Shown: positions 1 through 9,170 of the stretch, one piece after another
Position numbering within the stretch: the first letter of the stretch is position 1
Layout of the letters: every line of letters starts with the position of its first letter
Assembly: GCA_023247875.1 (NCBI GenBank)
Contig: JAHFFQ010000047.1
Coordinates: 1-9,170, forward strand
DNA from: Candidatus Omnitrophota bacterium
Lineage (GTDB): Bacteria; Omnitrophota; Gorgyraeia; Gygaellales; Profunditerraquicolaceae
Reading direction: 5' to 3'
Length of the DNA stretch: 9,170 bases
Notes under the pieces: generated by a model
Told to the model about the DNA's origin: nothing
Databases searched by the model: none
The model's input: only the letters and a program-made list of their open reading frames with translations
Position numbers and translations under genes: made by a program

Positions 1-10
1 CTCAAGCCAA

Positions 11-70
11 AGCAGAACTGTCCCCTAAAAAGGGACACTTTCGCTTTGTGTTCAGAACCGTCCCTAGGTA
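11..70. repeat. REP-like repeat pair with a small hairpin, upstream of glyA
   Basis: Two imperfect direct copies of a 'cagaacYgtccc' unit lie at 13-30 and 53-70, about 40 bases apart. The first copy continues into a hairpin: TGTCCC (19-24) pairs with GGGACA (32-37) around an A-rich loop. The arrangement resembles the short palindromic dispersed repeats, often linked to REP-associated tyrosine transposases, seen between genes in many environmental bacterial genomes; I am recalling this, not searching. The second copy runs straight into the glyA ribosome-binding site (aaggag, 70-75). There is no U-tract, so it is not an obvious terminator. The repeat probably continues left of the window. Confidence 0.5.
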
Positions 71-82
71 AGGAGTGGAGAA

Positions 83-1330
83 GTGAAACACTTAAAACAG
101 GTTGACCCGGAGATTTACGCCCTTATCCAGAAGGAGATCAGGCGTCAGGAGGAGAACCTGGAGCTGATCGCCTCTGAAAATTTCGCATCCCTGGCGGTTT
201 TAGAGGCGCAGGGCTCTGTGCTGACCAATAAATACGCCGAAGGTTATCCTGACAGGCGCTGGTATGGCGGCTGCGAAAATGTTGACACAGCCGAGAGCCT
301 GGCGATCGAGAGGGCAAAAGCAATATTCGGAGCCGAGCATGCCAATGTCCAGGCGCATTCAGGTTCGCAGGCGAATATGGCGGTATATTTTGCGGCAATA
401 AAGCCCGGGGATACGGTCCTGGCAATGGATTTAGCTAGCGGCGGGCATCTTACCCACGGCCATCCGCATAATTTTTCCGGGATGTTTTATAAAATTGTCG
501 GCTACGGGGTGGACAGGAAGACAGAAACCCTGGATTATGACGCGATCATGGAGCTGGCTAAAATACATAAGCCGAAGATGATCTTAGCCGGGGCCTCGGC
601 CTATCCCCGGATAATTGATTTCAAGAAGTTCCGCCGGATCGCAGATTCCGTCGGCGCCTATCTTTTCGTGGATATGGCGCATATCGCAGGCCTGGTAGCA
701 GCAGGCATCCATCCGTCTCCTGTGCCTTACGCGGAGTTCATTACTTCTACAACGCATAAGACTTTGCGCGGCCCTCGAGGAGGATTTATACTTTGCAGGA
801 AAGAGTTTGCCAAAAAGATCGACGCTTTGATATTTCCCGGGATACAGGGCGGGCCATTAATGCACGTTATTGCCGCAAAAGCCGTGGCATTCCGCGAGGC
901 AATGACCCCGGGGTTCAAGCAATATCAGGCGCAGCTGGCTAAAAATGCCGTAGAGTTAGCCGGGGCTCTGGAGGAAAGAGGTTTTCGTATTGTTTCCGGA
1001 GGAACGGATACACATTTGATGCTTGTTGATTTGAATCCCAAGAATGTAACCGGAGCAGATGCCTCCAGGATACTGGGGGAGGTCAACATTACGGTGAATA
1101 AAAACCTTATTCCTTTTGATGAAAAGGGGCCGGCAGTAACCAGCGGTATTCGGCTGGGGACCGCGGCGGTAAGCACGCGCAAAATGAAAGAGGAACAGAT
1201 GCGCAAAGTAGCCGAGTTGATCAACGCGGCATTAGAGGACCACGGTGACGCCAAAGAAATAGCCAGGATCAAAAAAGAGGTGATCGGTTTAACCGAGAAG
1301 TTCCCCTTGTACCCGGAGTTGTTAAAGTGA
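83..1330 (+). CDS. glyA: Serine hydroxymethyltransferase
   Basis: PLP-dependent cytosolic enzyme that interconverts serine plus tetrahydrofolate with glycine plus 5,10-methylene-THF, the main source of one-carbon units for thymidylate, purines and methionine. The 415-residue length is normal for bacterial SHMT and the protein looks complete. Visible motifs are the N-terminal [11 protein letters not shown] segment (about 24-34), [15 protein letters not shown] (49-63), the AHSGSQAN cofactor-binding stretch (91-98), VDMAH with the PLP-ring aspartate at D197, and [13 protein letters not shown] with the Schiff-base lysine at K226. SGIRLGT (354-360) has the substrate-carboxylate arginine at R357. 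The start is GTG at 83, supported by an aaggag ribosome-binding site at 70-75; the start residues fit the family. The stop overlaps the start of the next gene by four bases (GTGA), indicating translational coupling. No promoter is visible in the 82 bases upstream, so transcription may begin outside the window. Confidence 0.97.
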
Positions 1331-1788
1331 AAAATAAAAAGCATATAGATAAAAGGCCCAGCTGGGATGAATATTTTCTGGAGATGGCAGCCCTTGTTTC
1401 CAAAAGATCTACCTGCCTGCGCCGCAGCGTGGGCGCTGTTTTGGCAAGGGAGAAAAGGATCCTGGCCACCGGTTATAACGGCGCGCCAAGCGGATTAAAG
1501 CATTGTATTGAGGTCGGCTGCATGCGCCAGAAGCTGAAAATCCCCTCCGGAGAAAGGCATGAATTATGCCGCGCCCTGCACGCGGAGCAGAACGCCCTGA
1601 TCCAGTCATCCCTGCACGGGATAAGCGTAAAAGGAGCCACCCTTTATGCCACCAACCAGCCCTGTGTTATCTGCGCCAAGATGCTCATCAACGCCGGGAT
1701 AAAAGAGATCGTCATTGCCCAGGGCTACCCGGATAAAATGGCCATGGATTTTTTAAGGCAGGCAAAGATAAAAGTAAGGAAGATATGA
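1327..1788 (+). CDS. comEB: Deoxycytidylate (dCMP) deaminase family protein
   Basis: Zinc-dependent deaminase of the cytidine/deoxycytidylate deaminase superfamily. It is expected to convert dCMP to dUMP, the precursor of dTMP. The catalytic zinc site is complete: HAE at 85-87 (H85 ligand, E87 proton shuttle) and PCVIC at 112-116 (C113 and C116 ligands). The GYNGAPSG loop (49-56) is typical of the dCMP-deaminase branch, as is the insertion rich in C and H between it and the HAE motif (C60, C65, H78, C81), which may form a second metal site as in phage T4 dCMP deaminase. The length of 153 residues is normal. The GTG start overlaps the glyA stop (GTGA), and its stop overlaps the nrdR start (ATGA). 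Beside SHMT it supplies dUMP where methylene-THF is made, which fits thymidylate synthesis. The symbol follows the B. subtilis name; substrate specificity is inferred from motifs. Confidence 0.9.
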
Positions 1789-2252
1789 GATGCCCGTTTT
1801 GCGCCCATAAAGAGGACAAAGTGGTTGACTCCCGGGCTACTGCCGAGGAATCAGCGGTCAGGCGCAGGAGGGAGTGCCTTAAGTGCGGCAAACGCTTTAC
1901 TACCTATGAATATGTTGAAGAGGTATCTTTACTGGTAATTAAGAAGGACGGCCGCAGAGAGCCCTTTGACCGTAAGAAGATCTTAGCCGGGATAATCCGC
2001 GCCTGCGAAAAAAGGCCGGTGAGCGTGGAAAAGATGGAGGAGATCGTCACACAGGTCGAGCGGCTGATCCAGAAAAAGAGCGACCGGGAGGTTTCATCAA
2101 GCAGGATCGGTGAACTGGTGATGGAGAAGCTCAAAATCATTGATGATGTCGCTTATGTGCGCTTTGCTTCGGTGTACCGGCAGTTTAAGGATGTCGGGCA
2201 GTTCATGGTGGAGTTAAAGGATATTCTGGGAAAGGACAAGAAGAAGAAATAG
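1785..2252 (+). CDS. nrdR: Transcriptional repressor NrdR
   Basis: Nucleotide-sensing repressor of ribonucleotide reductase operons. It acts in the cytosol by binding paired NrdR boxes in a way that depends on ATP/dATP. The N-terminal zinc ribbon is complete, with CPFC (C3, C6) and [12 protein letters not shown] (C31, C34). The ATP-cone domain spans about 49-139, opening with [16 protein letters not shown] and closing with [13 protein letters not shown]. The protein is 155 residues, as usual, with a lysine-rich tail (KDKKKK). The start is fixed by the canonical MRCPFC N-terminus, and the ATG overlaps the preceding stop. I found no NrdR-box pair in this window, so its targets, probably nrd genes, lie elsewhere. 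It appears to end the housekeeping operon, because a promoter and leader for the next cassette follow at once. Confidence 0.97.
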
Positions 2253-2260
2253 AAGATCGC

Positions 2261-2286
2261 CACCTTGTATTAATTACCGGAAGGTG
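2261..2286. promoter_or_regulatory. Inverted repeat straddling the otsA promoter (candidate operator)
   Basis: CACCTT (2261-2266) and its exact reverse complement AAGGTG (2281-2286) are separated by 14 bases, so half-site centres are 20 bases apart, about two helical turns. The left arm overlaps the -35 box by two bases and the right arm abuts the -10 box, a geometry that would suit a repressor. The same repeat could form a 6-bp RNA hairpin after nrdR, but no U-run follows, so I do not call it a terminator. Six-base arms can occur by chance. Confidence 0.35.
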
Positions 2287-2292
2287 TATAAT
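2265..2292 (+). promoter_or_regulatory. Sigma70-type promoter for the trehalose cassette
   Basis: A -35 element TTGTAT (2265-2270) is followed by a 16-base spacer and a perfect TATAAT -10 element (2287-2292). Transcription would start near 2299-2300, leaving a leader of about 120 bases before otsA. This is the only good promoter match between nrdR and otsA, and no promoter could fit between the leader terminator (ending 2406) and the otsA start at 2422. Confidence 0.65.
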
Positions 2293-2298
2293 TAAATA

Positions 2299-2421
2299 TA
2301 AGAATAAGAATTTAAGTGGTCTAGGGATAGGGAGATGTCTCTAGAGGTGATTTTTAGATGGTCGGGCCGCCATCTGATTTATAATCAGGTGTCGGTTTTT
2401 GTTTTTAGGGAGACTAATTAA
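2299..2421 (+). promoter_or_regulatory. Structured 5' leader of otsA (candidate riboswitch/attenuator)
   Basis: The predicted leader contains several mutually exclusive helices. Helix A pairs TCTAGGG (2320-2326) with CTCTAGA (2339-2345), with one G-U pair. Helix B pairs AGATGG (2356-2361) with CCATCT (2370-2375). The terminator uses 2367-2379 as its 5' arm, so helix B would act as an anti-terminator. GTCTCT (2337-2342) could also pair with GGAGAC (2409-2414), which overlaps the otsA ribosome-binding site AGGGAG (2407-2412), so translational masking is possible too. GGGAGA at 2330-2335 mimics the ribosome-binding site and would compete for that arm. I compared the leader with the riboswitch consensus sequences I remember (c-di-GMP, c-di-AMP, guanidine, ZTP, preQ1, fluoride, SAM, T-box) and none fits. 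Pairings were found by eye, not computed. Confidence 0.5.
2367..2406 (+). terminator. Intrinsic terminator in the otsA leader
   Basis: The stem pairs CCG-C-CATCTGATT (2367-2379) with AATCAGGTG-T-CGG (2383-2395) around a TAT loop. It has 12 pairs including one G-T wobble, with one C-T mismatch, followed at once by TTTTTGTTTTT (2396-2406). This is a textbook rho-independent terminator. It lies downstream of the cassette promoter and directly before the otsA ribosome-binding site, so it should be conditional for otsA. It would also stop read-through from nrdR. Confidence 0.75.
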
Positions 2422-4659
2422 ATGAAAAGGATTCTTCTGTTTATCTTGCCCATATTAATCTTAGTCGCGCTTGGATTTACTGTTTCCGGTATTATGCAGG
2501 CCCGTTTCACGGAAGAAAAGCTTATGGATGACCTGAAAAGAAAAGCCAGGTCTGTGGATGAGGGTTTGGAGCTCTCCGCCAGGTATATCCTTATTAACAA
2601 TGATTTAAAACAAGCCAACCGTTTGGTTGATAGCTTCCAGAAAAGAGAAAGGCTGCAGGGTTGCGTAATTTACGGCAAGGATGGCCAAATATTAGCTATT
2701 ACGGAACGATTTGCTGATCTTAAGCAGAGAGAAAGGCCGTATCTCAAGGATATCCTGTCTTCAAAGAATCCGCGCGGGGCTTTGGAGAAATTCAAGGAAT
2801 ATTCCGTATACAGTTACATTTTGCCTGTTTTAAATGATGATGAGAGCGTATTAGGCATGGTAGAGGTGATTTATGACACTTCTTATATGTTTACTACCTT
2901 AACCGAATTATGGAGGAAAATAAGCGTTACTTCCATAACGCTTATTTTATTAATAGTATTGACTGCTTTATTGATCCAGAGGCAGATATTCATTATCCCC
3001 GTACGCAAGCTGACCAAATGGTTTACGCATTTTCAGAGAGGGGAAACCGATAAATTACGGCCGTTCGCGGAAAAAGGCGAATTTGGCAAACTTATCAGCG
3101 AAGTTGAGCAGGTTGCTTTAAGCATAAGGGTGGCTCGCCGCACCATGTCAGACCAGGCACATGACCGCCTGCAAAAAGAAGAACTCTGGACCGAAGCCAA
3201 GCTCAAAGATCTTATTCACGCGAAACTGGGAGACAATTCGTTATTTGTGGTTTCTAACAGGGAGCCTTTTATGCATGTTTTCGATGATGACCTGGGCAAG
3301 GCGATATGCATAAGGCCGGCAAGCGGAGTGGTTACCGCGATACATCCCATACTTTCTGCCTGCGGGGGGACCTGGATCGCCCATGGAAGCGGAAATTCCG
3401 ATAGAAAATTCGTAAATTCTAAGGATAAGCTCGGCGTGCCCCCCGAAGATAACCGGTATATTCTTAAAAGAGTCTGGCTTAATAAAGAGGAGGAGCAGGG
3501 TTATTATTACGGTTTCTCTAATGAAGGGCTATGGCCTTTATGCCATAATACACATACGCGCCCGGTCTTTAGAGAATCTGACTGGCGCATGTATAAAGAG
3601 GTAAATCAAAAGTTTGCCGATAGCGTTTTGAGCGAATTGCCGGCCAGCAGCCCGTTTATTTTTGTGCAGGATTACCATTTTACTCTTTTGCCAAAAATGA
3701 TAAAAGATAAACGCCCGGACGCAAAAGTAGCTTTATTCTGGCATATACCCTGGCCTACCCCCGAAGCTTTCATGATCTGCCCCTATCAGAATGAAATTCT
3801 GGAGGGAATGTTAGGATGCGATTTGATCGGTTTCCATGTCCAGAATCATTGTAATAATTTTCTTGATACCGCCAACCGCCTGCTTGAGTCACGCGTAGAC
3901 ACTGAAAAATTCAGTGTTGTGCGCTCGGGAAAAGAGACCTTTATAAGGGCTTTTCCCATAAGTATTAACGCGCACACAGGCGATGGTTCATTCAGGGTTG
4001 ATCCGATAAGGCAGGTGGAAAAGCTGAAAAAAGAGTTTGGGCTTGAGAATGAGATTGTCGCTGTGGGCGTAGACAGGATCGATTATACTAAGGGCATAGT
4101 AGAAAGGATCCTGGCGATAGATAGGTTTTTGGATAAGTATCCTGAATATAAAAAGAAGTTTGTTTTTATCCAGTTGGCCGCTCCAAGCCGCACGCACATT
4201 AAGCGTTATCATGATCTGATCGGGGAAATTGATGAGTTAATCGAGAAAATCAACTGGAAACATAGAGAAGGAAATTGGAAGCCGATAATCTATCTCAAAA
4301 AGCATTTCTCCCAGGATGATATTCAGCCCTATTATAAACTTGGCGATATTTGTATTGTCAGTTCGCTGCATGACGGGATGAACCTGGTGGCTAAAGAGTA
4401 TGTTGCCGAGAAGGATGATTTGTCCGGATCTCTGATCTTAAGCCAATTTACAGGGGCAGCGCGCGAACTCACCGATGCTATTTTGGTCAATCCGTATTCG
4501 ACTGAGGATTTTGCTGACAGTATAAAGCTGGCAATCCAGATGCCTAAGGAAGATAAACAAAGGCGCATGGAAAATATGCGCAAAGTAGTAGCCGAAAATA
4601 ATATTTACCGCTGGGCAGCGAACATTATCACCGAGCTGGTTGCTTTAAAAAAAATATAG
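2422..4659 (+). CDS. otsA: Membrane-anchored trehalose-6-phosphate synthase with sensor and HAMP-like domains
   Basis: GT20 glycosyltransferase expected to join glucose from a nucleotide sugar to glucose-6-phosphate, giving trehalose-6-phosphate. Catalytic residues, aligned by motif to E. coli OtsA, are present: VVSNR (276-280), YGFSNEGLWP (363-372), QDYH with D417, GVDRIDYTKG with R552 and K557, APSR ending at R590, and DGMNLVAKE with D651 and E659. The sugar loop reads RPASGVVTAI (298-307), where E. coli has a GG pair. At 745 residues it is about 270 longer than E. coli OtsA. The extra N-terminus holds a transmembrane helix (about 4-24), an extracytoplasmic PAS/Cache-like region (about 28-167, with CVIYGKDGQILA and YILPVLNDDESVLGMVEVIYD), a second helix (about 168-188) and a HAMP-like amphipathic segment (about 189-240). 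The catalytic domain would face the cytosol. The ATG follows AGGGAG (2407-2412) by nine bases. Start of a five-gene operon; the enzymatic call is firm and sensor gating is inferred. Confidence 0.92.
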   Translation: MKRILLFILPILILVALGFTVSGIMQARFTEEKLMDDLKRKARSVDEGLELSARYILINNDLKQANRLVDSFQKRERLQGCVIYGKDGQILAITERFADLKQRERPYLKDILSSKNPRGALEKFKEYSVYSYILPVLNDDESVLGMVEVIYDTSYMFTTLTELWRKISVTSITLILLIVLTALLIQRQIFIIPVRKLTKWFTHFQRGETDKLRPFAEKGEFGKLISEVEQVALSIRVARRTMSDQAHDRLQKEELWTEAKLKDLIHAKLGDNSLFVVSNREPFMHVFDDDLGKAICIRPASGVVTAIHPILSACGGTWIAHGSGNSDRKFVNSKDKLGVPPEDNRYILKRVWLNKEEEQGYYYGFSNEGLWPLCHNTHTRPVFRESDWRMYKEVNQKFADSVLSELPASSPFIFVQDYHFTLLPKMIKDKRPDAKVALFWHIPWPTPEAFMICPYQNEILEGMLGCDLIGFHVQNHCNNFLDTANRLLESRVDTEKFSVVRSGKETFIRAFPISINAHTGDGSFRVDPIRQVEKLKKEFGLENEIVAVGVDRIDYTKGIVERILAIDRFLDKYPEYKKKFVFIQLAAPSRTHIKRYHDLIGEIDELIEKINWKHREGNWKPIIYLKKHFSQDDIQPYYKLGDICIVSSLHDGMNLVAKEYVAEKDDLSGSLILSQFTGAARELTDAILVNPYSTEDFADSIKLAIQMPKEDKQRRMENMRKVVAENNIYRWAANIITELVALKKI

Positions 4660-4673
4660 TTTAGGAGGAATGG

Positions 4674-5729
4674 ATGAATAAGGATCTACTCTTGATATTC
4701 CCCGGTTTATCCGGGATGTTCATGCCGTTGATTATTTTTCTGGTAGTTTTGTCTGTAGGGCTCATTGCCAGGAAGATAATTTTCAACCGTTTTTCACATT
4801 GGGCTAAAAAAACATCTACGCAACTGGATGATATTATCGTGCAGGCAGCCAAAGGCCCGTTTACGGTTTTATCTTTGATGCTGGCTTTGTATTTCGCGTT
4901 GCAATTTTCAAAGCTGCCGGAGAACATCATGCTTGTTATGAGCAAGAGCATTCTTATCCTGGGTATAATTTCCGTGGTGTTGGCATTAGCGAATTTGTTA
5001 TCCGGGATAATAAAAATTTATGCCTCCAGGATTGATTCCGCTTTACCCGTTACCAGCCTCACTCAGAATATTGCCAGGATCTTTGTTTTCTCGGTCGGCG
5101 GGTTAATAATCCTTAATAGCCTGGGAATATCCATAACCCCGATATTGGCAACTTTAGGGGTGGGTGGCTTAGCGGTTGCCTTGGCGCTCCAGGATACCCT
5201 TTCAAATCTTTTTGCCGGTTTTCATATTACTGTCGCCAAACAGATAAGAGTAGGTGATTATATCAAACTGGAAACAGGAGAAGAGGGCTATGTGGTTGAT
5301 ATTAACTGGCGTTCGACAAAGATCAAGATGCTGCCCAATAATCTTGTCCTTATCCCTAACGATAAATTAAATAAAGCCATTGTTACCAACTATTATCTGC
5401 CGGATAAAGAAATGGCGGTTTTAGTCGATCTGGGGGTGCATTATAAAAGTGACCTGCAGAAAGTGGAGAAGGTTACTTGTGAAGTAGCAAAATCCGTTAT
5501 GGCGGAGGTAAGCGGCGGGGTTGTTTATTTCGAACCGTTTATCCGCTATCATACTTTTGGCGATTCCTGCATAAAATTTACGGTTATTTTAAGGGCTAAG
5601 GAATTTGTTGATCAATATCTGATAAAACATGAGTTTATCAAGAGGCTGCATAAACGGTATATTCAGGAAGGGATCAATATCCCTTATCCAATAAGGGCGA
5701 TAAACTACGAACAGGAGAAAACAGCCTAA
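4674..5729 (+). CDS. MscS-family small-conductance mechanosensitive channel
   Basis: Inner-membrane channel expected to open under membrane tension and release small solutes during hypo-osmotic shock. In the 351 residues I see five hydrophobic segments (about 13-33, 62-79, 87-110, 133-151 and 153-173), more than the three of E. coli MscS and closer to YnaI-type members. The last segment is the pore helix, rich in G and A (LATLGVGGLAVALALQDTLS, 158-177), followed by NLFAGFHI. The beta domain follows, with IRVGDYIKLETGEEGYVVDINWRST split over 191-215, then IPNDKL (227-232). The C-terminal alpha/beta domain ends with the family-typical GINIPYPIR (333-341). The ATG at 4674 follows AGGAGG (4663-4668); an ATG at 4670 stops after three codons. 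It sits 14 bases after otsA and just before otsB, so synthesis and possible release of the osmolyte are co-transcribed. Which MscS paralogue it matches is uncertain. Confidence 0.92.
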   Translation: MNKDLLLIFPGLSGMFMPLIIFLVVLSVGLIARKIIFNRFSHWAKKTSTQLDDIIVQAAKGPFTVLSLMLALYFALQFSKLPENIMLVMSKSILILGIISVVLALANLLSGIIKIYASRIDSALPVTSLTQNIARIFVFSVGGLIILNSLGISITPILATLGVGGLAVALALQDTLSNLFAGFHITVAKQIRVGDYIKLETGEEGYVVDINWRSTKIKMLPNNLVLIPNDKLNKAIVTNYYLPDKEMAVLVDLGVHYKSDLQKVEKVTCEVAKSVMAEVSGGVVYFEPFIRYHTFGDSCIKFTVILRAKEFVDQYLIKHEFIKRLHKRYIQEGINIPYPIRAINYEQEKTA

Positions 5730-5735
5730 TATAAA

Positions 5736-6530
5736 ATGCGTTATATTTTTCATGATTTGGAAAAAATAAAAAGAAGCTTAGAGGGAAAATATATATTTTT
5801 GTTTCTTGATTGCGACGGTACGTTGGCACCTATTGTTAATACGCCGGATAAGGTTATAATTTCTCCAGAGACAAAGAAGCTGCTTGGTTCACTGTCGCAG
5901 AAAAAGAATTGCAGGATAGCAATCATCAGCGGCAGGACCTTGGCTGATATAAAGAAGAGATTCGGCCTTAAGAATATTATTTATTCAGGCAATCATGGTT
6001 TTCAAATAGAGGGGCCCAAGATCAAGCATGAATTGGCGGTCCCCTTAGGTTATAAAAAAGCATTGCGGCGCATCAAAACCCGGCTTAAGGAAAAGCTTTC
6101 CGGGATAAAAGGTGTTTTTGTGGAGGATAAAAAGCTTTCTTTAGCTTTGCATTTCAGGCTTGCCGATAAGGGGCAGCTGCCTTTTATTAAAACCGTTTTC
6201 CATGAGAGCATTATTTTATATTTGTTAAAAAATAAAATTAAGGTCAGTCCCGGGAAGAAAATTCTCGAAGTAAGGCCGCCGTTACGCTGGGATAAAGGAA
6301 AGATTGTTTTATGGCTTCTTGGCAGGCAGATATTCGCCTTGAAGAAAGAGAACGTTTTACCCGTTTATATTGGCGATGATGTGACTGACGAGGACGCATT
6401 TAAGGCATTAAAAAATAAAGGGTTGACTGTATTTGTGGGAAAACCCGGTAATTCCAAAGCGGATTACTACTTAAAGAGTACGGAAGAGGTAATTAAATTC
6501 TTACGTTTGATAGACTTAAAGTCTAATTAA
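5736..6530 (+). CDS. otsB: Trehalose-6-phosphate phosphatase
   Basis: HAD-superfamily hydrolase that removes phosphate from trehalose-6-phosphate to give trehalose, completing the OtsA/OtsB route in the cytosol. All HAD motifs are present: motif I FLDCDGTLAP (nucleophile D25, acid/base D27), motif II IISGR (63-67, S65), GNHG (85-88) of the OtsB family, motif III lysine in RWDKGK (K187 or K189), and motif IV GDDVTDEDAF (213-222). The C2B-type cap lies between motifs II and III (about 95-180) and includes LEVRP (177-181). The 264-residue length is normal. The ATG lies 6 bases after the mscS stop with only a distant GGAG (5714-5717), so translational coupling to mscS is likely. Base composition is distinctly AT-rich compared with glyA and nrdR. 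Confidence 0.94.
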   Translation: MRYIFHDLEKIKRSLEGKYIFLFLDCDGTLAPIVNTPDKVIISPETKKLLGSLSQKKNCRIAIISGRTLADIKKRFGLKNIIYSGNHGFQIEGPKIKHELAVPLGYKKALRRIKTRLKEKLSGIKGVFVEDKKLSLALHFRLADKGQLPFIKTVFHESIILYLLKNKIKVSPGKKILEVRPPLRWDKGKIVLWLLGRQIFALKKENVLPVYIGDDVTDEDAFKALKNKGLTVFVGKPGNSKADYYLKSTEEVIKFLRLIDLKSN

Positions 6531-6532
6531 TT

Positions 6533-7204
6533 ATGCCAGAATTAATAAAAGAAAAAGAGCCGTTTAAGTTTTGTACGAGGTTGCATTTATCGGAACTTAC
6601 CGGTTTACGAGCCACCACTTTAAGCCAGCTTTTGGCCCTTATCAAGGAAGTGCCCGGCTCATGCATTTATCACCACACACATAGATTCTTGCAGCAGCAT
6701 CAGTATCTTTCTCCTGAGCCCCCGAATGACTTTGCCTTCTGGGTAACAGATATCCTCGGAGAAGATGAGCTTGGGGAAAGGCTGGTCAGTATTGATACTA
6801 TGCAATATTCGGCTATCCGTGACCTGCGGGAGAAGATCGCTTCAACCATCGAAAATTATTTGAAGGATAACCCGTTGGCCAAATTGAAATTTGCCAGAGC
6901 CGAGGAAGAGTTTCATTTTATTAAGTCAGTAAGTTTTATCCTGCCGACAAACTATATTGTTTATGATCTAAAGGGATTCGCGGAGGTTTTAAGGAAAATT
7001 ACCGTTGATGCTATTTATTTTCATATTTTTGAAGCGCGCCTTCGGCTGGAAAAGCCGACAAATGACTTTTCATACTGGATAGAAAACTCTTTAGGCGATA
7101 AAGAATTGGCGGACAAGATCTCCGGTTTAGATCCTTATACCCGCACTTTAGAGGATTTAAGAAATAAGATCATACAAATGGTCGAAAGAAGGACGGCTGG
7201 TTAA
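6533..7204 (+). CDS. Tandem-duplicated protein of unknown function, resembling DUF5752
   Basis: Function unknown. The protein is 223 residues, with no signal peptide or membrane segment, so probably cytosolic. It has an internal duplication: repeat 1 at about 11-109 and repeat 2 at about 127-218. Matching landmarks are FKFC (11-14) with FHFI (127-130), SCIYHHTHRF (43-52) with DAIYFHIFEAR (159-169), PPNDFAFW (63-70) with PTNDFSYW (175-182), and LREKI (98-102) with LRNKI (209-213). Repeat 1 carries a histidine cluster (H47, H48, H50, H56) that repeat 2 mostly lacks, a possible metal or phosphate site. I recall similar proteins as DUF5752, often beside sugar-metabolism glycosyltransferases; the family number needs checking. 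The ATG is two bases after the otsB stop without a clear ribosome-binding site, and treT begins directly after its stop. A partner or regulator of TreT or of trehalose metabolism is a reasonable guess from position only. Confidence 0.75.
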   Translation: MPELIKEKEPFKFCTRLHLSELTGLRATTLSQLLALIKEVPGSCIYHHTHRFLQQHQYLSPEPPNDFAFWVTDILGEDELGERLVSIDTMQYSAIRDLREKIASTIENYLKDNPLAKLKFARAEEEFHFIKSVSFILPTNYIVYDLKGFAEVLRKITVDAIYFHIFEARLRLEKPTNDFSYWIENSLGDKELADKISGLDPYTRTLEDLRNKIIQMVERRTAG

Positions 7205-8419
7205 ATGGCAAAAATAGAAGAGTATGTTCCCTTAGTAGGGCCGGCGGTTATTGACGACTTGAGATTGCTCGGCGAACGGTTAAAGGGCAAGGTCATCCAG
7301 CATATAAATTCTACTCCCGTGGGCGGCGGGGTTGCCGAGATATTAAACCGCATGGTTCCGCTGCTGCAGGAGTTAGGCGTAGACACGAAATGGGATGTTA
7401 TAAAAGGCGGAGAGCAGTTTTTTGCGGTGACAAAAAAGTTTCATAACGCCTTGCACGGCAGGGCCGAAGAGATAACTCAGAGTGATTTTGAGATATTTAT
7501 GCAAACAAGCCAGGATAATATCAAAAATGTTAACACCTATGGAGACATCGTTTTTGTCCACGATCCGCAGCCAATAGCCATGGTAAAAAAGAAAGCCGCC
7601 AATAAATGGCTTTGGCGCTGCCATATCGATGTATCCAGCCCCAATGAAAAAGTCTGGGGATTTCTTATGGACTTCATTTGCCAATACGATTCAGCGGTAT
7701 TTTCTGCCCCATCTTTTTCAAGGAAGCTGCCCATCAGGCAATTTTTGATCTCCCCGTCCATAGACCCCTTAAGCGATAAAAACAAAGAGCTGCCGCAGGA
7801 AACGATCGATTCCGTATTAAAGAAATACGATATCAGGCAAGATAAGCCGATTATTACGCAGATATCGCGTTTTGACCGTTTGAAAGACCCGGTAGGAGTA
7901 ATCGAAGCATATTTGCAGGTAAAGAAATATATTGATTGTCAATTGGTGTTGGCTGGCGGCACCGCTGAGGATGACCCGGAAGGCTTTAAGGTTTTAGGGG
8001 AAGTCAAAGAAAAAGCTAAGAGAGACCCCGATATTCACATTTTGTTATTATCTCAAAATGATATAGAGATTAATGCGCTGCAAAGGGCATCGGATATAGT
8101 TGTTCAGAAGTCCCTTAAGGAAGGATTCGGCTTAACGGTTGCCGAGGCCTTGTGGAAAGCAAAGCCCGTGGTAGCTTCAAATGTCGGAGGCATTCCTTTG
8201 CAGATAAAACATAAATATTCGGGGCTATTGTGCCATTCCGTGGAAGGAGCGAGTTTCGCCATCAAGCAACTTTTAAGCAGCCCCGCATACGCCAAAAAGC
8301 TGGGAGAGAACGGGCGGGAGCATATAAAAAATAATTTTCTGATTACCCGCCATTTAAGGGATTATATGTTATTATTCCTTTCGCTGTATCATCCGGAAGA
8401 TGTTGTCCATCTGTGCTAG
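7205..8419 (+). CDS. treT: Trehalose synthase of the TreT type (GT4 family)
   Basis: GT-B fold glycosyltransferase resembling archaeal and Thermotoga TreT, which reversibly makes trehalose from a nucleotide-diphosphate glucose and free glucose. Diagnostic features are the N-terminal HINSTPVGGGVAEILNRMVP (33-52), VTKKFHNALHG (75-85), FVHDPQP (117-123), and WRCHIDVS (137-144). The donor-site segment is SRFDRLKDP (R222, K227), and KEGFGLTVAEA gives the E-x7-E pair E306/E314, followed by ASNVGGIP (324-331). The 404-residue length fits the family. The ATG lies immediately after the previous stop; AAGGA at 7189-7193 is a plausible ribosome-binding site. With OtsA/OtsB upstream this gives a second, phosphate-free route in the same operon. 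TreT may also run backwards, recovering nucleotide-glucose from trehalose. A related GT4 trehalose phosphorylase is the main alternative; the N-terminal motif favours TreT. Confidence 0.87.
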   Translation: MAKIEEYVPLVGPAVIDDLRLLGERLKGKVIQHINSTPVGGGVAEILNRMVPLLQELGVDTKWDVIKGGEQFFAVTKKFHNALHGRAEEITQSDFEIFMQTSQDNIKNVNTYGDIVFVHDPQPIAMVKKKAANKWLWRCHIDVSSPNEKVWGFLMDFICQYDSAVFSAPSFSRKLPIRQFLISPSIDPLSDKNKELPQETIDSVLKKYDIRQDKPIITQISRFDRLKDPVGVIEAYLQVKKYIDCQLVLAGGTAEDDPEGFKVLGEVKEKAKRDPDIHILLLSQNDIEINALQRASDIVVQKSLKEGFGLTVAEALWKAKPVVASNVGGIPLQIKHKYSGLLCHSVEGASFAIKQLLSSPAYAKKLGENGREHIKNNFLITRHLRDYMLLFLSLYHPEDVVHLC

Positions 8420-8522
8420 CTTATTATTAAGATTGGCTTGCCATTTACCTTCCCCGCTGTTATAACCGCCCCTCTTAGGGCAAATTACGCGAGGAAATAC
8501 CTCTCCAAAAGCATTAATATTC
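8420..8522. other. Spacer after treT with no clear terminator
   Basis: I see only weak inverted repeats: GCCC/GGGC at 8468-8471 and 8478-8481, and GAGG/CCTC at 8491-8494 and 8500-8503. Neither is followed by a U-run, so I do not call a rho-independent terminator for the cassette. Confidence 0.4.
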
Positions 8523-8551
8523 TTGATATATTGAGGCATTTCACCTATAAT
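8523..8551 (+). promoter_or_regulatory. Sigma70-type promoter for the BFN gene
   Basis: TTGATA (8523-8528), a 17-base spacer and a perfect TATAAT (8546-8551) make the best promoter match in the window. Transcription should start near 8557-8559, leaving a leader of about 70 bases before the ATG at 8629. It separates the nuclease/nucleotidyltransferase genes from the trehalose cassette. Confidence 0.7.
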
Positions 8552-8572
8552 AAATTATTAAATTCAGAATGG

Positions 8573-8602
8573 TCCGCTTCGGCCCATATGAAGGGGCCCG
8601 GA
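8573..8602 (+). other. Hairpin in the BFN-gene 5' leader
   Basis: TCCG (8573-8576) pairs with CGGA (8599-8602), and GGCCC (8581-8585) with GGGCC (8594-8598), with a four-base bulge (8577-8580) and an eight-base loop. No U-run follows, so it is not a terminator. It ends 14 bases before the ribosome-binding site GGAG (8617-8620) and could stabilise the message or affect initiation. Found by eye. Confidence 0.35.
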
Positions 8603-8628
8603 TATAAAGATCAAACGGAGAGCTAGAT

Positions 8629-9039
8629 ATGATCGAGATGGAATTGAATAAGATCGTCATTGACGAGAAGAGGCATGACCAGCTGATCGCCCTAAAGGAA
8701 AAGGGAGGCACAAGGGTCCTGCCGATCATAATCGGTTTGAGCGAGGCCTCGGCCATAAAATTAAAGATCAGCGGTTTCAATCCTCCGCGGCCGATGACCC
8801 ACGACCTGATCTATGCGATACTCAATGACCTTCAGGCAACCATTGATAAGGTGATCATCGATAAGTTGGAGGAGAGTACCTTTCACGCCAAGATCGTCAT
8901 TAGAACATCCAGCGGCGAATTGAAGAGCATTGATGCCAGGCCTTCCGACAGTATTGCCTTAGCCGTGAGATCTCACGCCCCCATATTCGTGGAGGATGAG
9001 ATCATCAATAAATCAGAGATGTTTAAGCAAGACAAATAA
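8629..9039 (+). CDS. Bifunctional nuclease family (DUF151/BFN) protein
   Basis: Small cytosolic protein of the BFN domain family (DUF151), named after plant and bacterial members reported to have DNase and RNase activity; its role in most bacteria is unclear. The domain fills nearly all 136 residues: an N-terminal beta strand (IEMELNKIVIDE), LPIIIGLSEASAIKLKI (31-47), PRPMTHDLIYAILN (53-66), and the signature RPSDSIALAVRSHAPIFVED (103-122). The ATG at 8629 is supported by GGAG at 8617-8620, eight bases upstream; an in-frame ATG at 8638 would give too short a spacing. It has its own promoter and leader hairpin. The next gene, a CCA-adding-type enzyme, begins three bases after its stop in the same frame, so the pair is probably co-transcribed and may share an RNA-metabolism theme. 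Higher GC by eye than the trehalose genes. Confidence 0.9.
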   Translation: MIEMELNKIVIDEKRHDQLIALKEKGGTRVLPIIIGLSEASAIKLKISGFNPPRPMTHDLIYAILNDLQATIDKVIIDKLEESTFHAKIVIRTSSGELKSIDARPSDSIALAVRSHAPIFVEDEIINKSEMFKQDK

Positions 9040-9042
9040 GCT

Positions 9043-9170
9043 GTGCCGTTGAAATTCTCCGCAAAAGAAAAAGAGATCTTAAGGCCGGTTAATGACTTTG
9101 CCAGGTCAAGAAAGGTGAAATTATACCTGGTGGGCGGAGCCTTGCGCGACCTGCTCCTGAAACGCAGGAA
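9043..9170 (+). CDS. CCA-adding enzyme/poly(A) polymerase-type nucleotidyltransferase, 5' end only
   Basis: Reading on from GTG at 9043 gives an open frame to the window edge, cut after 42 codons. It reads MPLKFSAKEKEILRPVNDFA, then KLYLVGGALRDLLLKRR. The LVGGALRD motif is the nucleotide-binding start of class II nucleotidyltransferases, which add CCA to tRNA 3' ends or poly(A) tails. The catalytic DxD motif would follow just past the window. The start is GTG 9043 or TTG 9049; neither has a good ribosome-binding site, so coupling to the BFN gene, whose stop is three bases upstream in the same frame, is likely. Confidence 0.8.
   Translation, partial: MPLKFSAKEKEILRPVNDFARSRKVKLYLVGGALRDLLLKRR

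Follow-up and report, generated by a model that had tools for sequence, protein, structure and literature searches.

Conserved trehalose-6-phosphate synthases fused to a predicted WalK-like membrane receptor, often behind a predicted nhaA-I riboswitch, in Omnitrophota

The window analysed here is the whole 9,170 nt stretch at positions 1 to 9,170 (forward strand) of contig JAHFFQ010000047.1, from the Candidatus Omnitrophota bacterium assembly GCA_023247875.1. Positions 2422..4659 (plus strand, ATG at 2422, stop at 4659) form one open reading frame (ORF), preceded by the sequence GGGAG, for a 745 aa protein, here called sensor-OtsA. In this protein, which represents a conserved fusion, a trehalose-6-phosphate synthase domain follows a part that sequence comparisons and models predict to be a membrane receptor resembling WalK, in the order helix, Cache, helix, HAMP. 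The parts, all on the plus strand, are a hydrophobic helix at residues 4-22 (2431..2487), a Cache/PAS-like extracytoplasmic domain at residues 26-163 or thereabouts (2497..2910), a second hydrophobic helix at residues 167-185 (2920..2976), a HAMP-like segment at about residues 188-240 (2983..3141), a short linker seen in the AlphaFold2 model at residues 241-273 (3142..3240), and a GT20 trehalose-6-phosphate synthase domain at residues 274-739 (3241..4638).

A preliminary description of the ORF, made from the sequence alone, had proposed two hydrophobic helices around an extracytoplasmic region of about 140 residues, a Cache/PAS-like fold in that region, a HAMP-like linker and a complete GT20 domain, and all of these held up. 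The two hydropathy peaks (2.79 and 2.73) are 144 residues apart and tower over the next-best value of 1.29. An AlphaFold2 model of the monomer (mean pLDDT 82.2, pTM 0.65) has helices at 2-59 and 62-74, strands between 78 and 152, and helices at 154-205 and 220-250, followed by the GT20 domain; a four-helix HAMP bundle would form only in a dimer. In the window protein alone, the Cache signal is weak (Pfam dCache_1, E 2.3e-4, 21.3 bits against a 45-bit cut-off) and no Pfam match to HAMP was found at E up to 1. Two family alignments, of 21 members and 36 rows, both hand-picked for diversity, were also used. In the former, sCache_3_2 was detected in 18/21, dCache_1 in 15/21 and HAMP in 11/21 members (E up to 1). 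The family profile matched the solved HAMP domain of AF1503 at positions 189-238 (E 0.0013) and the extracellular domain of WalK (YycG) at 31-149 (E 0.0024), and the closest structure to the N-terminal model was also the WalK receptor, in a fold comparison that mainly involved residues 8-178 and barely covered the HAMP segment and linker. Within the HAMP-like segment, P193 and L224 are present in 36/36 alignment rows and G207 in 34/36. By prediction, then, two transmembrane helices enclose a Cache fold, as in Cache-HAMP receptors, and the AF1503 profile match together with the 11 HAMP-positive members places a HAMP segment after helix 2. At the output position, the Pfam scan returned glycosyltransferase matches only, with no kinase, cyclase or chemoreceptor tail; it likewise gave no histidine kinase domain anywhere in the protein, and the NCBIfam model HK_WalK scored 26.3 bits (cut-off 725).

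The enzyme domain matches PF00982 at 412.4 bits (cut-off 32.5) over profile positions 3-471 of 473, and so is complete. The donor and acceptor residues described for the solved OtsA of Mycobacterium thermoresistibile, in the available text of PMC6879718, were mapped onto the window protein by alignment, where their equivalents are R280, G302, Y362, D417, H441, R552, K557, R590, D651-L655 and E659. All of these are invariant in 36/36 rows, except for R552 (35/36), while the position of Q146 in the solved OtsA is a histidine in 36/36 family rows. Because the substrate-contacting residues of the solved enzyme are conserved, the GT20 part of sensor-OtsA is likely to be an active enzyme.

The N-terminal part is widespread. 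With residues 1-290 as the query, 1021 database proteins were matched (the best 120 were listed). Close relatives of the protein carry Omnitrophota labels. When a divergent N-terminal region from this phylum was the query, 69 proteins were retrieved, the furthest of which came from a Terriglobia bin, and the N-terminus from that bin in turn matched 1122 proteins (best 120 listed, with only the 7999 best candidates scored). Source names among the listed matches include Terriglobia, Acidiferrales, Terriglobales, Binatia, Limnocylindrales and Elusimicrobiota. The best-120 listings yielded 308 proteins, 290 of them at least 700 aa long, and 283 of these 290 have exactly two N-terminal hydrophobic helices, mostly spaced by 160-165 residues, so that the earlier surmise that the architecture may exist elsewhere is supported. 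On a contig labelled Candidatus ainarchaeum (L021) there is a relative whose best segment is 60% identical, likely the result of a binning error. In 384 sampled genomes of the window's phylum, GT20 scored above cut-off in 218, and the sensor N-terminal profile was matched in 149 at E up to 0.001, the weakest being short matches to the HAMP region in other frames. Among the listed sensor matches of at least 60 bits (123, or 121 after removal of two fragments from genome G345), 102/121 lie in stop-free frames of 730-790 aa. The preliminary description had allowed that the N-terminus could be a misassembled neighbouring gene; misassembly or wrongful fusion is refuted by the counts of genomes, frames and database proteins just given, and we regard it as practically discounted. 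In a tree of the GT20 domain (48 of 61 collected sequences, the 13 without the anchor motif used for cutting being left out), the long forms are all on one side of one branch, with support of 93/83 (below the star level of the tool), which fits a single fusion event. The window assembly (1.38 Mb, 177 contigs) has one GT20 gene, that of sensor-OtsA, and the family profile matched no other gene in it, so no sensor paralogue was found there.

Upstream of the ORF, at 2317..2375 on the plus strand, is an nhaA-I riboswitch aptamer (RF03057; 44.1 bits against a gathering score of 37, full model 1-55), the sole copy found in the window assembly. In the available text of PMC9646797, nhaA-I is the Li+-I riboswitch, with Na+-II variants. 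An intrinsic terminator (2367..2406, plus strand; hairpin 2367-2395, followed by a T-rich run) was recognised by its hairpin and fold. Its 5' arm and aptamer stem P2 have the 3' strand of the latter in common, so that the two structures are expected to be mutually exclusive. Such an overlapping terminator is present in 71/72 distinct elements of the fetched loci, selected by a typed core motif and not by Rfam score, compared with 95/1440 shuffled tails. In the P2 loop region, the base preceding CGGG is U in the window and C in 2/72 elements (L018:7942 and L064:1971), whose ion specificity is possibly altered. Tandem core motifs occur upstream of sensor-otsA in two loci (L075:2633 and 2766; L084:1402 and 1537). 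For the window operon, a simple promoter search over positions 2200-2480 found no site on the plus strand.

Across the sampled genomes, nhaA-I scored above cut-off in 97/384, and the joint tally was 82 genomes with sensor and nhaA-I, 37 with the sensor only and 17 with the RNA only. Using the 150 listed GT20 rows, the riboswitch lies within 2.2 kb upstream of 31/52 long forms, 3/80 short forms, 1/8 of intermediate length and 0/10 OtsA-OtsB fusions; for the last class (ten listed rows, assigned by score and length), even the 6 kb upstream contain no nhaA-I among those listed. It lies within 3.5 kb upstream of the sensor start in 65/121 sensor matches, at less than 500 nt in 45 (34 of them at 40-55 nt) and at 1068-1116 nt in 15, a gap with room for one mscS gene, which is directly visible in L064 and L065. 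That the riboswitch is exclusive to the sensor form was rejected as a strict rule, since three short-form operons carry it (L110, L125 and L130). Their gene order is riboswitch-mscS-otsA, with mscS between the RNA and the short otsA (in L130, the automatic choice of the first ORF had missed mscS, which is the actual first gene), and they are natural controls for the contribution of the receptor part.

A further 78 riboswitches have no sensor match nearby. Of these, 40 were retrieved, an ORF was present behind 39, and 38 of the ORFs entered the domain scan (L109 was left out). The commonest first gene behind these copies (n = 38) codes for a Band_7 (SPFH) protein (12), followed by MscS (8), CitMHS/ArsB-type transporters (2), which we take to be NhaD-like, Na+/Ca2+ exchangers (2) and an Na+/H+ exchanger (1). 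The MscS, transporter or exchanger genes follow nhaA-I at L001:1004-1059 and L002:14014-14068 and in L098, L113, L117, L119 and L126, with the same transporter gene in L119 and L002. These transporter, exchanger and MscS targets point to a salt or osmotic regulon, which the nhaA-I targets of this lineage are likely to form. Two other loci have, behind the riboswitch, a 759 aa protein with GT4-type glycosyltransferase domains (L105:1464-3740 and L131:244-2520).

In the window, sensor-otsA begins a run of five plus-strand genes with gaps of 14, 6, 2 and 0 nt. It is followed 14 nt downstream by a gene for an MscS-family mechanosensitive channel (4674..5729; PF00924, PF21088 and PF21082 above cut-off), then by otsB for trehalose-6-phosphate phosphatase (5736..6530; TIGR00685, 165.7 bits against 68.05), a DUF5752 gene (6533..7204; PF19027, 230 bits) and a gene for a TreT-like GT4 trehalose synthase (7205..8419; PF21269, 185 bits; NCBIfam TreT_Thcocales, 365.5 bits, below its cut-off of 775). 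Genes for serine hydroxymethyltransferase, a deaminase and an nrdR-like product (4-nt overlap) lie upstream, separated by a 169-nt gap. Many loci likewise have a DUF5752 gene with otsB and treT on either side, and the occurrence of a TreT-like synthase beside OtsA and OtsB in one operon brings two possible trehalose routes together. An OtsA-OtsB fusion as the cause of the 745 aa length was rejected for the window, where otsB is a separate gene. The nhaA-I/terminator and the mscS-otsB-DUF5752-treT operon, both overlooked in the preliminary description, are the strongest independent hints of an osmotic or ionic system. In named loci (24, of which 20 were scanned), mscS is the direct neighbour in 15/24. 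This adjacency could be read as signalling in reverse, with the GT20 domain sensing cytosolic sugar phosphates and signalling outward or to a partner such as MscS, and a second role as an osmotic stress sensor is on record for a cytosolic OtsA of Arthrobacter (PMC5685639, text available in part). The substrate residues of sensor-OtsA are intact, otsB is in the same operon and the Pfam scan found no output domain on the outer side, all of which make this reading improbable.

Our preferred interpretation, which we hold to be moderately probable, is a two-level control of trehalose synthesis, in which the riboswitch sets the amount of synthase and an envelope receptor, acting via HAMP, sets its activity. 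With more Na+ (or Li+) inside the cell, the aptamer would be stabilised and the overlapping terminator blocked, allowing read-through into otsA-mscS-otsB-DUF5752-treT, the ligand and direction of response being those suggested by analogy with the studied nhaA-I/Na+-II riboswitches. From the predicted topology, the synthase would sit on the cytoplasmic side of the membrane, near NDP-glucose and glucose-6-phosphate. A cue at the Cache domain (a ligand, or the state of the wall or turgor) would displace helix 2 together with the HAMP dimer, a movement that the linker of roughly 30 residues may transmit to the N-terminal Rossmann lobe. When the solved OtsA closes, its first helix and the loop in front of that helix shift by up to about 12 Å (PMC6879718, available text), and the equivalent region of the window protein sits just after the HAMP linker; because of this direct succession, HAMP motion is proposed to gate GT20 closure. 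OtsB would then convert the product to trehalose. MscS channels provide a release path on down-shock, and the one in this operon may do the same. The sensor part and the RNA rest on sequence and models, and it is signalling, ligands and enzyme activity that we infer. Overall, the observation made in the preliminary description is confirmed, and is stronger than was stated, while its interpretation is partly supported: that an envelope signal steers osmolyte synthesis within one polypeptide is plausible.

Several results weigh against two-level control. In the AlphaFold2 model, pLDDT is down to 55-76 in the ten-residue blocks that make up residues 201-260, with the lowest block (55) in the HAMP part, and at a pTM of 0.65 the placement of the domains is not reliable. 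Within 3.5 kb, no nhaA-I was found for 56/121 sensor matches (under stricter RNA filters, and with some contigs short), and the three operons for a sensor-free OtsA have one. If the U before CGGG is the specificity base of the published riboswitches, then the window element would be of the Li+ type, so Na+ is not certain. Identity to the window protein drops to 0.18-0.19 over Cache/HAMP in the most distant rows (GT20, 0.56), which fits diversified sensing but also weak constraint on a mere anchor. The Cache-HAMP part might therefore do no more than tether the synthase, perhaps beside MscS or a membrane sugar-export system, with sensing lost and the riboswitch alone regulating. This would agree with the strong divergence of the extracytoplasmic sequence between lineages and with the weak Cache matches of single members, and the riboswitch by itself would supply the ionic or osmotic logic. 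One helix would suffice for an anchor, yet two helices, a Cache fold of about 140 residues and the HAMP features are retained as a set even where N-terminal identity is only about 20%, and proteins whose names point to several other groups have two helices as well; we consider a pure anchor unlikely, though it is the alternative to be taken most seriously.

The trehalose part of the two-level reading also has a point against it, in that sensor-OtsA does not reach the cut-off of the OtsA equivalog TIGR02400 (426.5 bits against 564.85, NCBIfam) and is a GT20 relative outside that equivalog. The model for glucosylglycerol-phosphate synthase, TIGR02398, also matches (310.6 bits), as would be expected if the product were not trehalose-6-phosphate but, for example, glucosylglycerol phosphate. 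Since TIGR02400 gives the higher score, the acceptor residues agree with those of OtsA, and the same operon carries an OtsB above cut-off and, further along, the TreT-like gene, we think a different product very improbable.

If two-level control is correct, a membrane receptor drives metabolism directly, providing a simple answer to how envelope state is coupled with osmolyte synthesis in some bacteria, and the presence of nhaA-I riboswitches before trehalose-6-phosphate synthase genes, a link left open by their discoverers, is explained. A wider proposal, which we advance tentatively and which could well go either way, is that several phyla possess a new class of one-protein receptors with a biosynthetic glycosyltransferase as output and neither phosphorelay nor second messenger, in which an envelope Cache-HAMP sensor would gate osmolyte synthesis; in Omnitrophota, they would be placed under an Na+-responsive antitermination riboswitch and together with an MscS release valve, so that trehalose would be controlled at two levels and in two compartments. 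In the literature searched, which left out most subscription journals, we found no description of a HAMP or Cache trehalose synthase and no experiments on any sensor-OtsA member, in line with the earlier remark that no functional description was known. An Omnitrophota genome paper (PMC8542988), in its available text, refers to the synthesis of trehalose as a capacity and no more.

As set out in the available text of PMC9646797, trehalose-6-phosphate synthase genes are occasionally found downstream of nhaA-I, with Li+, or Na+ and osmotic stress, suggested as the reason, so this link is already known; that text has the Na+-II terminator variants in Deltaproteobacteria only, and in addition three terminators arranged ahead of nhaD, and no mention was found in it of the receptor architecture, the terminators of the present lineage or the mscS operon. 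The window element resembles those described in scoring above gathering and in its intrinsic terminator platform, as in Na+-II variants, but here terminators occur in 71/72 elements of the lineage and are tied to a receptor-like synthase and mscS. The OtsA of Arthrobacter A3, according to the available text of PMC5685639, is an osmotic stress sensor that governs morphology via self-assembly and product level; it is similarly a trehalose synthase tied to osmotic sensing, but is cytosolic. With the OtsA proteins of E. coli and M. thermoresistibile, sensor-OtsA shares a complete GT20 domain, including the donor and acceptor residues, but while most of the solved GT20 chains matched are 455-534 aa, the window protein adds a receptor-like membrane module of 270 residues in front. 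The helix-Cache-helix-HAMP module is most like that of WalK (YycG), its best structural match and best Cache profile match, but a glycosyltransferase occupies the output position in place of the histidine kinase. Cache domains, SMP_2 apart, carry signalling outputs (PMC4822843, available text). The HAMP-like segment at 189-238 is shared with AF1503 and with other HAMP receptors, namely kinases, cyclases and chemoreceptors. HAMP linkers usually pass signals to kinases, cyclases or chemoreceptor tails. Sensor-OtsA is predicted to be a variant of the Cache-HAMP receptors with an unusual output, and if it works as proposed, the outputs of such receptors widen from the usual signalling enzymes to a biosynthetic enzyme.
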